Part shown: in pieces, positions 7,922-12,138 of the stretch
How the letters are laid out: each line of letters starts with the position of its first letter
Position numbering within the stretch: position 1 is the stretch's first letter
Source of the DNA: Ignisphaera sp.
GTDB taxonomy: Archaea > Thermoproteota > Thermoprotei_A > Sulfolobales > Ignisphaeraceae
Direction of reading: 5' to 3'
NCBI GenBank assembly: GCA_020833345.1
Contig: JAJHQM010000006.1
Coordinates: 1 to 41,960 of the forward strand
Length of the DNA stretch: 41,960 nt
The notes under the pieces: model-generated
What the model was told of the DNA's origin: nothing
The model's database searches: none
The model's input: the letters and a program-made list of their open reading frames with translations, nothing else
Program-made: the position numbers and the translations under genes

Positions 7922-8314
7922 TGTTACCACACCTCAGCAATTTCAATTATGCGTTAGCAAGTTAATATCTACAGCTCTAATCAAAACTTATAATATACAA
8001 GACTTAGCTCTAATTTCTTCCTTAATGCTGAAACAAGGATTCCTGGTGTGACTAGCTGAACTTCCTTTACTACTTTGCAATGCCATTAACTGTGACCAGG
8101 CATCTTTCTATTTTCTATGCATTTCATCTTCTTCAGAGTTACACGTAATCAAAGTGAGGTACTCCGAGGAAGATCGCATTTGAAAGTGAAGTGCAAGAGA
8201 CGCTAGCAAGGGCTGTACCTCGATATGTGTTATTGCTATGAAGCTCTCTAAATTTTATAGTTTTAATAAGGTATAAAGAGCTTGGTACAGAGAAGCGGCC
8301 TTGGCGCATTTATT
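7922..8314. other. Gene-free divergent gap with structured sequence
   Basis: About 390 bases between the divergently transcribed nrdJ and the three-gene operon. No credible ORF was seen; the ORFs listed here are tails of shadow frames or an upstream extension. For the minus strand CTTATAAT at about 7987-7994 is a possible nrdJ TATA box with a leader of about 40 bases. For the plus strand GTATAAAG at 8271-8278 fits the operon start at 8315. The middle holds a long hairpin (8126-8174) and an overlapping inverted pair GAGGTAC/GTACCTC (8156-8162 and 8215-8221). No C/D box sRNA or tRNA could be built here. Confidence 0.6.
8126..8174. ncRNA. Strong hairpin, possible small RNA or leader element (strand unknown)
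   Basis: The arms ATCTTCTTCAGAG (8126-8138) and CTCCGAGGAAGAT (8162-8174) pair over 13 positions with one G-U and one mismatch on either strand. The stem continues by TAC/GTA after a single bulged T, leaving a 16-nt loop. It is neither a recognised C/D RNA nor tRNA. An alternative pairing GAGGTAC with GTACCTC at 8215-8221 competes with the 3' arm. It could be an H/ACA-like RNA, a leader structure for either gene, or chance. Confidence 0.3.
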
Positions 8315-9124
8315 ATGGCTAAGAGAAAGAAGGAAGTGGAAAGCCCTGTTAAGGAAGTGAAAAAAGAGACTAAAAAGACTTCACCTAGCAGTAAGAGGAA
8401 AGCTGTTGATACAGAAGACTGGGTTTTAAGACATGCAGATGAATTGGTATCGCGACTTGGATTAGAATTTCTTAAGCTGAGTGCTGAGGAATACGTCTCT
8501 CTCTTAACAAAGATTGTAGATATGGTTCGAGGCGAGTCTGCAACAATTGATATTGATACTGTTGTTAGGAGAATTAAAAGAAACGTTGATAAGATATACC
8601 CCATGCTTGCTGCAACCTTACTTGAGCTAAGGACTTCTCTAGACGAAGAACAGCTAGAGTTCGTTGTTAACAATATTGGTGAAGCAGTATTAGCTTACGC
8701 ACCAAGGCTCTATAGCGAGGCTAGGAAGCTTGGGAGAGAAGATCTTATTGAAAAGCTTAGAAATACGTGGAGGCAGTATTGGGTTTTAAAGCGTTATCCC
8801 ATCCTTCCTGTTGCATGTCCTTATTGCAATTTTAACTCACTCATGCCAGATCTATCATGTGCTATATGTGGAGCTATAGTTTCCGAAAATGAATTAAAGT
8901 CATTTTTAAATTTCAAGGCTCTGCTAGAAGAATTCGCTTTGAAGGAACCCATAGAAAATGTGAAGAAGGCGTTGAGTTTTGGATATGTGTATGTAAATAG
9001 CCTTGGTATAAAGGTTCCAGGAGAGCATAGGGATGTGCTTGATATAGAGGTTTTATTAACGAGTAAGGATAAGGAGATTTTAATAGATAAGCTTAAGCAG
9101 CGTGAAGCTCAGCATGGTAATTGA
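8315..9124 (+). CDS. Conserved-type zinc-ribbon protein of unknown function
   Basis: I do not recognise this 269-aa protein. The track starts at a TTG at 8282; the ATG at 8315 (MAKRKKEVES) is preferred because a GTATAAAG box at 8271-8278 then gives a normal short leader. Residues 1-30 are lysine-rich and disordered-looking, a helical region follows (about 35-160), and a C4 zinc ribbon has Cys168, 171, 182 and 185 (CPYC and CAIC). The C-terminal part (about 195-265) looks globular. It is the first gene of a three-gene operon; its last 11 bases overlap the next ORF. The charged N-terminus plus zinc ribbon suggests nucleic-acid or ribosome contact, which is inference only. Confidence 0.75.
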   Translation: MAKRKKEVESPVKEVKKETKKTSPSSKRKAVDTEDWVLRHADELVSRLGLEFLKLSAEEYVSLLTKIVDMVRGESATIDIDTVVRRIKRNVDKIYPMLAATLLELRTSLDEEQLEFVVNNIGEAVLAYAPRLYSEARKLGREDLIEKLRNTWRQYWVLKRYPILPVACPYCNFNSLMPDLSCAICGAIVSENELKSFLNFKALLEEFALKEPIENVKKALSFGYVYVNSLGIKVPGEHRDVLDIEVLLTSKDKEILIDKLKQREAQHGN

Positions 9125-9470
9125 AGTAAAGAATAGTGAACAAGTTAACGAATACATAGCTAGAAATAGAATAGTGCTAGTAGCATTTTTAAACTCTCAA
9201 AGGATCGCGGAGAAAGGTTATGTAGTAAAACTCCTGAGCATTATAGAGGAGGAATCTATACCCACGATACGTACAGCTCTATATGTAAGACCTAGCAATT
9301 CTGAAGTTAACGCATCTATATCTCTTAATCTTTACCTAAATGGCACATGCGTATTTTCTCAAGAGGGGCTTTTTGGACATTTAGAAAACGACTTAATAGC
9401 TTTGAAGATGGGTATTAAGGAAGTTCTCAAAAATAAAATGATTCAAGTAAAGTTTGTAAAAAGAAGCTGA
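9114..9470 (+). CDS. Small protein, possibly a redox-dead thioredoxin-fold member
   Basis: 118 aa from ATG 9114 (the track starts at GTG 9102; both overlap the end of the previous gene, which implies translational coupling). The pattern IVLVAFLNSQ, then IRTALYV, then LNLYLNGTCVFSQEG and a C-terminal helix, resembles the beta-alpha-beta-alpha-beta-beta-alpha order of thioredoxins, with the knob before the last strands. The CxxC active site is missing and only one cysteine is present. The thioredoxin-fold reading is a weak pattern match, not a family hit. It is the second gene of the operon with the zinc-ribbon and Ncs6-like genes, seven bases before the latter's ATG. Confidence 0.65.
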   Translation: MVIEVKNSEQVNEYIARNRIVLVAFLNSQRIAEKGYVVKLLSIIEEESIPTIRTALYVRPSNSEVNASISLNLYLNGTCVFSQEGLFGHLENDLIALKMGIKEVLKNKMIQVKFVKRS

Positions 9471-9477
9471 TTTGAAT

Positions 9478-10359
9478 ATGATAAGCATAAATACAACACA
9501 GCCACTATGCACATCATGTAGAAAAAGAGTAGCTGTCTACAGGAGACTTACATCTGGCGAAAAGCTCTGTAGACTTTGCCTCTTTAGGAGTGTTGCTAAG
9601 CAAGTTAGAAAAACAATTCACTACTATAAGATGCTGAAGAAAAAAGAATCTGTGCTATACATCTTAAGGAGTGATGATATAGCACTATCTATAGAGGCCT
9701 TCGCCATAATTCACGCTGCAGCAAGGGATCTAGAGATGAGCTATAACATAATATGCCCTAGCAACATTGTAAACTGCAATGCTGTTGAAACACATATAAA
9801 GAACTTGGTTAAGGATGTGCCAATAAATGTTGTATTAACTCATCATAGCCTAGACGCTATCCCCAAGACATTTATTCACGCTCTAAAGTATGTAGAAGCA
9901 CTAGCAATAAAAATAGCTTTAGAGCGCAACTTAGGTACCATTTTAACACCTCTTTTTCGTGATGAAATGACCTTGTTATCTATATATGGTCTGCTAACAA
10001 CATCAAAAACAGTATTTGGAGAAGGACTACCTATAAAGCGTATTGGAGATGTTAAAGTAGTTAGGCCATTTTATCACGTTATTTCTACGGATGTAATGTA
10101 TTTGACAATAACCTCAGCACTGCGAGCCCTCGAGCCCCTCCATGAGCCATGTTTAAAGCTAACTATAGGTAGCGACAGGTTTATGGAAAAAGCAAGGAAA
10201 ACCTTGGCTAAATCTCCTGAGCTAATGTATTCTAGTGCTAAATCTGTTGAGCTTTTACAGAGCTTTATAACAGCAGGTTCAACACTATGCAAAGTGTGTG
10301 GCTCTTTCAGTAATAGAGAAGTTTGTGAGTATTGTGAAACTATTTTGAAATTTCTTTAA
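9478..10359 (+). CDS. Ncs6/TtuA-like protein lacking the PP-loop (pseudoenzyme)
   Basis: 293 aa from ATG 9478 (the track uses TTG 9472). Family scaffold: N-terminal zinc site Cys11/14/31/34 with CTSCRKRVAVYRR and LCRLCLFRSVAKQVRKTI, very like NcsA/TtuA tRNA 2-thiouridine synthases, and the matching C-terminal zinc site Cys271/274/283/286. The ATP-binding SGGKDS P-loop is replaced by RSDDI (about residues 64-68), and the middle CxxC and third Cys that hold the catalytic iron-sulfur cluster are gone (THHSLDAIP instead). Hence it should not adenylate or thiolate. It looks like a partner or regulatory paralog, comparable in logic to eukaryotic Ncs2/Ctu2. It is the last gene of the operon; the thermosome gene downstream has its own promoter. 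Confidence 0.75.
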   Translation: MISINTTQPLCTSCRKRVAVYRRLTSGEKLCRLCLFRSVAKQVRKTIHYYKMLKKKESVLYILRSDDIALSIEAFAIIHAAARDLEMSYNIICPSNIVNCNAVETHIKNLVKDVPINVVLTHHSLDAIPKTFIHALKYVEALAIKIALERNLGTILTPLFRDEMTLLSIYGLLTTSKTVFGEGLPIKRIGDVKVVRPFYHVISTDVMYLTITSALRALEPLHEPCLKLTIGSDRFMEKARKTLAKSPELMYSSAKSVELLQSFITAGSTLCKVCGSFSNREVCEYCETILKFL

Positions 10360-10434: not shown

Positions 10435-12138
10435 ATGCCTATGGCAATGTATGGAATACCCGTGTTAATATTAAAGGAAGGAACATCAAGAACTCATGGA
10501 AGAGAGGCGCTCAGGGCCAACATCATGGCTGCAAGAATACTAGCTGAAATTCTGAGGACTAGCCTTGGGCCTAGGGGGTTAGACAAGATGCTTGTTGATA
10601 GCTTTGGCGACATAACTGTAACTAATGATGGTGCTACTATTGTTAAGGAAATGGAGGTACAGCACCCAGCAGCAAAACTCTTAGTTGAAGCCGCTAAAGC
10701 TGTTGATGCTGAAGTTGGTGATGGAACTACTTCTGCAGTTGTATTAGCGGGTGCATTACTTGATAAAGCGGAGCAGTTGCTTGACCAAGGCATTCACCCA
10801 ACAACGATAATTGAAGGATACAAGAAGGCTTTAACAAGGGCTTTAGAGATTCTTGATGACATTGGTGTAAAAGTTTATGTAGGTGATCTAAGCAAGCCTG
10901 AAGAGAGAGAGAAGACTAAGGCTGAGATAAAGAAAGCTCTGTACACGGCATTAGCAAGTAAATACATAGCGACTCCTGATGTACTTGATAAGCTAATGGA
11001 CATGGCAATAGAGGCTGCATTCAGAGTTGCAGAAAAGAGACCCGATGGTACTTATGATGTTAAGCTAGATATGGTTAAGATCGAGAAGAAGAGAGGTGGA
11101 AGCTTAGCAGATAGCATGCTTGTTTATGGAGTTGTTTTGGATAAGGAGGTTGTTCACCCGGCAATGCCTAGAAGAGTTGAGAATGCGAAAATAGCTTTAC
11201 TCGACGCTCCATTAGAAATAGAGAAGCCTGATATTACAGCAAAGATTAACATAACATCACCTGAACAAATAAGAGCTTATTTAGAGGAAGAAGCAAAGAT
11301 ACTTAGAGATATGGTTGAGAAGGTTGCTAGTGTTGGTGCTAATGTTGTAATTTGTCAAAAGGGTATTGATGATGTAGCGCAACACTACTTAGCTAAGAAG
11401 GGTATTATGGCTGTAAGAAGAGTTAAGAGAAGCGACATGGAGAAACTTGAAAAAGCTACTGGAGGAAGGATTGTAACGAGTATTAGAGACCTCACAGAAA
11501 AGGATCTAGGTGAGTGCGCACTTGTTGAAGAAAGGAGAGTAGGCAATGATAAAATGGTATTTGTAGAGAATTGTAGGAATCCGAGAGCCGTAACTATATT
11601 GCTTAGAGGTGCTAACGACATGTTACTTGATGAAGTTGAGAGAAGCTTAAACGATGCCTTAAACACTGTCAGAAATATCCTTCGAGATCCCAAGATAGCC
11701 TTTGGAGGTGGAGCAGCAGAAATTGAAGTAGCAATGAGGCTAAGAAAGTGGGCTGAAAGTGTTGGAGGTAGGGAGCAACTTGCAATATTAGCGTTTGCAG
11801 ATGCATTAGAGGAAATACCATCAGTGCTTGCCCAGACAGCTGGTATGGATATACTTGAAACGGTCATGGAGCTAAGGAAGCTCCATGCTGAAGGTAAGGC
11901 TGCTGCAGGTATAGATGTGCTAAATAGTAAGGTTACAGAGGATATAAGCAAACTAAATGTTATTGAACCTGTAATAGTAAAGAAACAGATACTAAAAAGC
12001 GCAACAGAAACAGCAACAACGATACTAAAGATAGATGATGTTATTGCAGCGGCCCCAAGGAAGGAGGAGAAGGGCAGGAAGGAGGAGAGGAAAGAAGAGG
12101 AGGAAGGCAAAGAGGCCAGGACCCCCTCTCTAGATTAA
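10435..12138 (+). CDS. thsA: Thermosome subunit (group II chaperonin)
   Basis: A 567-aa group II chaperonin subunit, the cytosolic ATP-driven folding chamber of archaea. Complete family features: [12 protein letters not shown] near the N-terminus, the ATP-site motif [20 protein letters not shown], the apical domain in the middle, and [14 protein letters not shown] plus AGMDILETV in the C-terminal equatorial domain. The C-terminus is a charged, Lys/Glu-rich tail ending TPSLD rather than the Gly/Met tail common in other chaperonins. Crenarchaea carry two or three paralogs (alpha, beta, gamma); which one this is cannot be decided here, so the symbol is generic. ATGs also occur at 10441 and 10447, but the SD GGTGA supports 10435. 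Confidence 0.95.

Follow-up and report, generated by a model that had tools for sequence, protein, structure and literature searches.

A PP-loop-less NcsA/TtuA-like protein of Thermoproteia co-occurs with one NcsA clade and may be its accessory subunit

Introduction

Archaeal NcsA has been described as a single, stand-alone protein that thiolates U34 as a homodimer, and heterodimerisation has been treated as a eukaryotic step (PMC10067955, PMC12645042). The [4Fe-4S] cluster cysteines of MmNcsA (PDB 6SCY) are C142, C145 and C233, and in the published model of the eukaryotic Ctu1/Ctu2 complex, Ctu2 sits at the second NcsA protomer; recombinant production of this complex has failed (PMC10067955). 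Ncs2/Ctu2 is NcsA-like, lacks the cluster cysteines, keeps its zinc sites and has an intact NcsA-type companion (PMC10067955), all of which it has in common with the archaeal protein described here. A sequence-only reading of the DNA studied here had likened that protein to the PP-loop-less partner of a eukaryotic Ncs6-Ncs2 pair. The likeness holds for the cysteines and the zinc sites, but Ncs2 is not cleanly PP-loop-less, since the loop of plant CTU2 is degraded to SGGxxS (PMC4014090), whereas it is erased in the archaeal protein. The silent-partner arrangement has so far been described only for the eukaryotic enzyme, and among openly licensed papers we found no account of a PP-loop-less archaeal NcsA homologue.

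Results

The gene lies on the forward strand of the window, the whole stretch of 41,960 nucleotides of Ignisphaera sp. that was analysed. Its open reading frame (positions 9478 to 10359) was identified by the ORF call and homology searches as encoding a PP-loop-less NcsA/TtuA-like protein of 293 amino acids from an ATG start, or of 295 from an alternative TTG at 9472. Sequence inspection and alignment found all eight zinc ligands, namely those of an N-terminal site (C11-x2-C14 ... C31-x2-C34, positions 9508 to 9579), whose four cysteines are retained in 58-59 of 59 homologues, and of a C-terminal site (C271-x2-C274 ... C283-x2-C286, positions 10288 to 10335), retained in 43-45 of them. In the alignment with NcsA, the PP-loop SGGKDS is replaced by RSDDI (residues 64-68, positions 9667 to 9681), and the 59-member alignment contains no conserved counterpart of the MmNcsA cluster cysteines at any of the three positions; C225 of the window protein lies close to the third but is unconserved, being Ser in the nearest relative. 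The intact zinc sites, the altered loop and the missing catalytic cysteines claimed in the sequence-only reading were thus all borne out, and the intact NcsA that it proposed to search for is encoded elsewhere in the source genome (G000:C16), not adjoining the PP-loop-less gene. An intact TtuA-type protein is also encoded in this genome (G000:C14). The motif SPELMYSS (positions 10213 to 10236) is a signature of the family, with E248 present in 58/59 homologues and an aromatic residue or His at the position of Y251 in 57/59. The AlphaFold2 model of the window protein, built from an alignment of only two sequences (the window protein and L032), had a pLDDT of 40.

Taken alone, the window protein exceeded the curated cut-off of no Pfam or NCBIfam model, and its single-sequence phmmer match to MmNcsA was weak (9.8e-5). 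A profile of 25 homologues (A1) aligned over almost the full length with both MmNcsA (3.5e-17) and TtuA PH0300 (3e-16; PDB 5MKO), and in a profile-profile comparison with hhalign, profile A5 matched NcsA with 99.5% probability and an E value of 4e-23 over 273 columns. On these profile alignments, the window ORF is a full-length NcsA/TtuA homologue, well past chance. It shares both zinc modules with MmNcsA but lacks the PP-loop and the cluster cysteines, with a gap around the CxxC region; with TtuA it has the N-terminal LIM-like zinc domain and the overall alignment in common, and shows the same catalytic losses. In the tree, one long, supported branch divides the canonical from the PP-loop-less proteins.

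Homologues were found in 13 of the 16 sampled families of the class Thermoproteia (labelled f1 to f16; genomes and loci bear G- and L-numbers), namely in f1-f5, f8, f10 and f11 within the order and in f12-f14 outside it; f7 and f9 have them only in isolated genomes. The f11 copy is diverged and shortened to 234-246 amino acids, falls outside the strict cut-off of profile A1, and occupies the syntenic site between the thermosome and zinc-ribbon genes. The PP-loop is gone in 59/59 aligned homologues, in which the cluster cysteines are likewise not conserved, while beyond the class every best-scoring match that was fetched retains SGGKDS. Given this loss across 13/16 families, the sequence comparison indicates that the gene is not a local degenerate copy, and the pseudoenzyme reading survives the comparison with orthologues, none of which retains the PP-loop within the class. 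The window protein is 72% identical to its orthologue in Ignisphaera sp. RSNS13 (L032), and the corresponding dN of 0.20 and dS of 1.16 (dN/dS ~0.17) point to purifying selection. Conservation in the family is highest in the zinc modules and in a basic segment that follows the first of them. A decaying, functionless copy might be suspected from the fast divergence of the family, from a few profile matches with stop codons and from a split frame in G072. However, the gene is intact across the class, its dN/dS is low and identical residues are lost in every member, so that we consider this explanation to be of almost negligible probability. The split gene (G072:C1:589147-589901) extends over two frames in a one-contig genome and reflects either recent decay or a sequencing error.

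In the family of Ignisphaera, the gene follows a zinc-ribbon gene without Pfam or NCBIfam match (positions 8318 to 9124, with the ORF listed from a TTG at 8282) and a gene for a thioredoxin-fold protein without CxxC (9102 to 9470; the Pfam Thioredoxin model recognises an orthologue with 7e-8), and precedes a thermosome subunit gene (10435 to 12138), a syntenic marker throughout the class; all are transcribed in the same direction, on the forward strand in the window. Two dead enzyme folds, the CxxC-less thioredoxin fold and the NcsA-like pseudoenzyme, adjoin each other here. The tight operon that had been proposed is borne out in the window, where the stop codon of the upstream neighbour, at 9470, lies just before the PP-loop-less ORF, and it applies to this family but not to the others, in which the gene occupies the same site mostly on the strand opposite to its neighbours; the operon is therefore lineage-specific. 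The conserved site beside the thermosome gene and the shared direction in Ignisphaera's family could indicate a component acting with the zinc-ribbon protein, the cysteine-less thioredoxin and the thermosome. However, in 12 inspected genomes without the PP-loop-less gene (L182-L193), the zinc-ribbon gene was present in 12/12, and the thermosome and thioredoxin-like genes still lay beside it in 11/12. Since the neighbours persist in its absence, they do not explain its retention; together with the inverted orientation elsewhere, this led us to reject a functional link to the neighbours, which we regard as very improbable. The zinc-ribbon gene was found in 48/52 genomes searched and is missing from all four f8 genomes. 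A Urm1-like candidate near the f11 thermosome gene was dropped, as the ORFs concerned (65-68 amino acids) had no C-terminal GG.

The distribution of the PP-loop-less protein was compared with that of NcsA using profile A4, for which the NcsA type found in the source genome served as the basis. Among canonical proteins of the class, this profile scored that type at ~380-575 bits and other types below 280. In a manual tally of the per-genome tables of 122 genomes (completeness ≥90%, contamination ≤5%), including four f11 genomes settled separately (G081, G106, G111, G166), 87 encoded both the PP-loop-less protein and this NcsA type, 33 neither, two the PP-loop-less protein only (G187, G200) and none that NcsA only. 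Thus, 87 of the 89 near-complete genomes with the PP-loop-less protein also have this NcsA as a candidate catalytic partner, and another NcsA-like type is present in most genomes that lack the PP-loop-less protein. Shared ancestry inflates this raw table, given that f6, f7 and f9 supply most of the negatives. The exceptions within families are more telling, as G089 and G104 (f7) and G181 (f9) have retained both proteins, unlike most of their relatives, while G163 (f2), unlike its relatives, has neither and carries the NcsA-like type of f7 and f9. In a comparison of independent contrasts on a thermosome and zinc-ribbon tree, 3/3 contrasts on supported branches were concordant, a number too small for significance (sign test, p 0.25).

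In the canonical tree, the co-occurring NcsAs form one clade, in which 33/34 members come from genomes with the PP-loop-less protein and the remaining one from an assembly that is 76% complete (G099). The f6 NcsAs branch next to this clade, though their genomes lack the PP-loop-less protein. The NcsA-like type of f7, f9, G163 and f13 forms a separate clade, and f13 (G200) is a clear counter-example, as it combines the PP-loop-less protein with this other type. At L224 and L227-L237 (f7, f9, f13, G163), this distinct NcsA/TtuA-like type replaces the usual NcsA, and its position in the tree suggests that it was exchanged among lineages or is an ancient paralogue. Distances of the PP-loop-less protein correlated more weakly with those of NcsA than with those of the neighbouring zinc-ribbon gene (16 genomes, saturated). 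The motif P-G-x-K-Y/F-S/T-x-x-R-S (YS..KS), which precedes the C-terminal zinc site, occurs in most stand-alone NcsAs, is partly kept in the PP-loop-less family and is lost in 34/34 co-occurring NcsAs; this pattern is only suggestive, since most f6, f15 and f16 NcsAs from genomes without the PP-loop-less protein have lost it as well. At two loci (L166 and L173, in G058 and G065), an otherwise canonical NcsA has the PP-loop SGGKDG instead of SGGKDS.

The homology to NcsA and TtuA alike, and the TtuA-type protein of the source genome, would also be compatible with a partner of a TtuA-type enzyme in U54 thiolation. TtuA-type genes did not co-vary with the PP-loop-less protein, however: they remain in genomes without it, and no TtuA-type match was obtained in several genomes with it, some of which consist of a single contig (G024, G065, G062). 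This disfavours TtuA as the partner, and we give this alternative very little weight.

Discussion

The PP-loop-less protein shows the same losses and retentions as Ctu2 and is distributed together with one NcsA type, which makes an accessory protomer the most economical reading. A silent partner subunit is made probable by the genomic co-occurrence with one type of working NcsA, and on the sequence evidence we have moderate confidence that the protein is a catalytically dead NcsA paralogue acting as an accessory subunit of an active NcsA. The ancestral NcsA would have been a homodimer, of which a duplicated copy in the Thermoproteia would have lost the ATP and [4Fe-4S] sites while keeping the fold and the zinc modules, and this dead copy would now substitute for one NcsA protomer. 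It may position the tRNA (or a sulfur carrier), with the active NcsA adenylating and thiolating U34. The new partner subunit suggested by the sequence-only reading has thus gained independent support from the co-distribution with one NcsA clade; the physical pairing itself, the positioning of the tRNA and U34 as the target are what we infer. Several observations count against such a subunit: the independent contrasts number only three, f13 combines the protein with the other NcsA type, its distances correlate less with NcsA than with the zinc-ribbon gene, the motif before the C-terminal zinc site has also disappeared from most f6, f15 and f16 NcsAs, the NcsA gene of the source genome lies elsewhere, and the fast-diverging family includes members in which the C-terminal zinc site is lost.

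Since the zinc modules, together with the basic stretch after the first one, are the best-conserved parts, the protein could instead have been repurposed as an independent RNA- or tRNA-binding protein outside any NcsA complex, its co-distribution with NcsA reflecting shared ancestry or a common pathway. The small number of independent contrasts and the combination found in f13 would fit such a role, but a free-standing protein would not be predicted to be gained or lost together with the NcsA type in isolated lineages, and we consider this explanation rather unlikely, if a serious one. The co-distribution would equally fit a protein that regulates the NcsA pathway or serves it as a sulfur-relay adaptor, docking, for example, a Urm1/SAMP-type carrier or its E1 without replacing a protomer. 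However, the retention of a full-length NcsA-like sequence speaks for dimerisation rather than for the evolution of a small adaptor, and no carrier gene was recognised adjoining the PP-loop-less gene; an adaptor therefore appears distinctly unlikely.

Returning to the accessory subunit, it plausibly works by analogy as Ncs2/Ctu2 does with Ncs6/Ctu1, and probably has a separate evolutionary origin. In contrast to Ctu2, which has extra regions, the archaeal protein has ~290 amino acids (~240 in f11), and it was found in one archaeal class only. None of 25 members matched the Pfam CTU2 model at E ≤0.5, although HMMER may miss very remote kin. The Ncs2/Ctu2-like character that had been proposed therefore stands as a description of a dead NcsA-like protein with zinc sites, but not as orthology: membership of the Ncs2/Ctu2 family is not established by this comparison, made by description and with the Pfam CTU2 model. 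We tentatively propose, at a little under even confidence, that a two-subunit NcsA, with an origin independent of eukaryotic Ncs6/Ncs2, operates in most Thermoproteia, and that in some lineages (f7, f9, G163) an NcsA-like type with a single subunit took its place, both parts being lost jointly.

The class-wide presence of a dead paralogue and its tie to a single NcsA clade suggest that the step to a heterodimer, hitherto considered eukaryotic, was taken separately in archaea. The accessory role would be testable in the tractable Sulfolobus, if the gene is present there as in f11, and the archaeal pair could serve as a soluble model of Ctu1/Ctu2.
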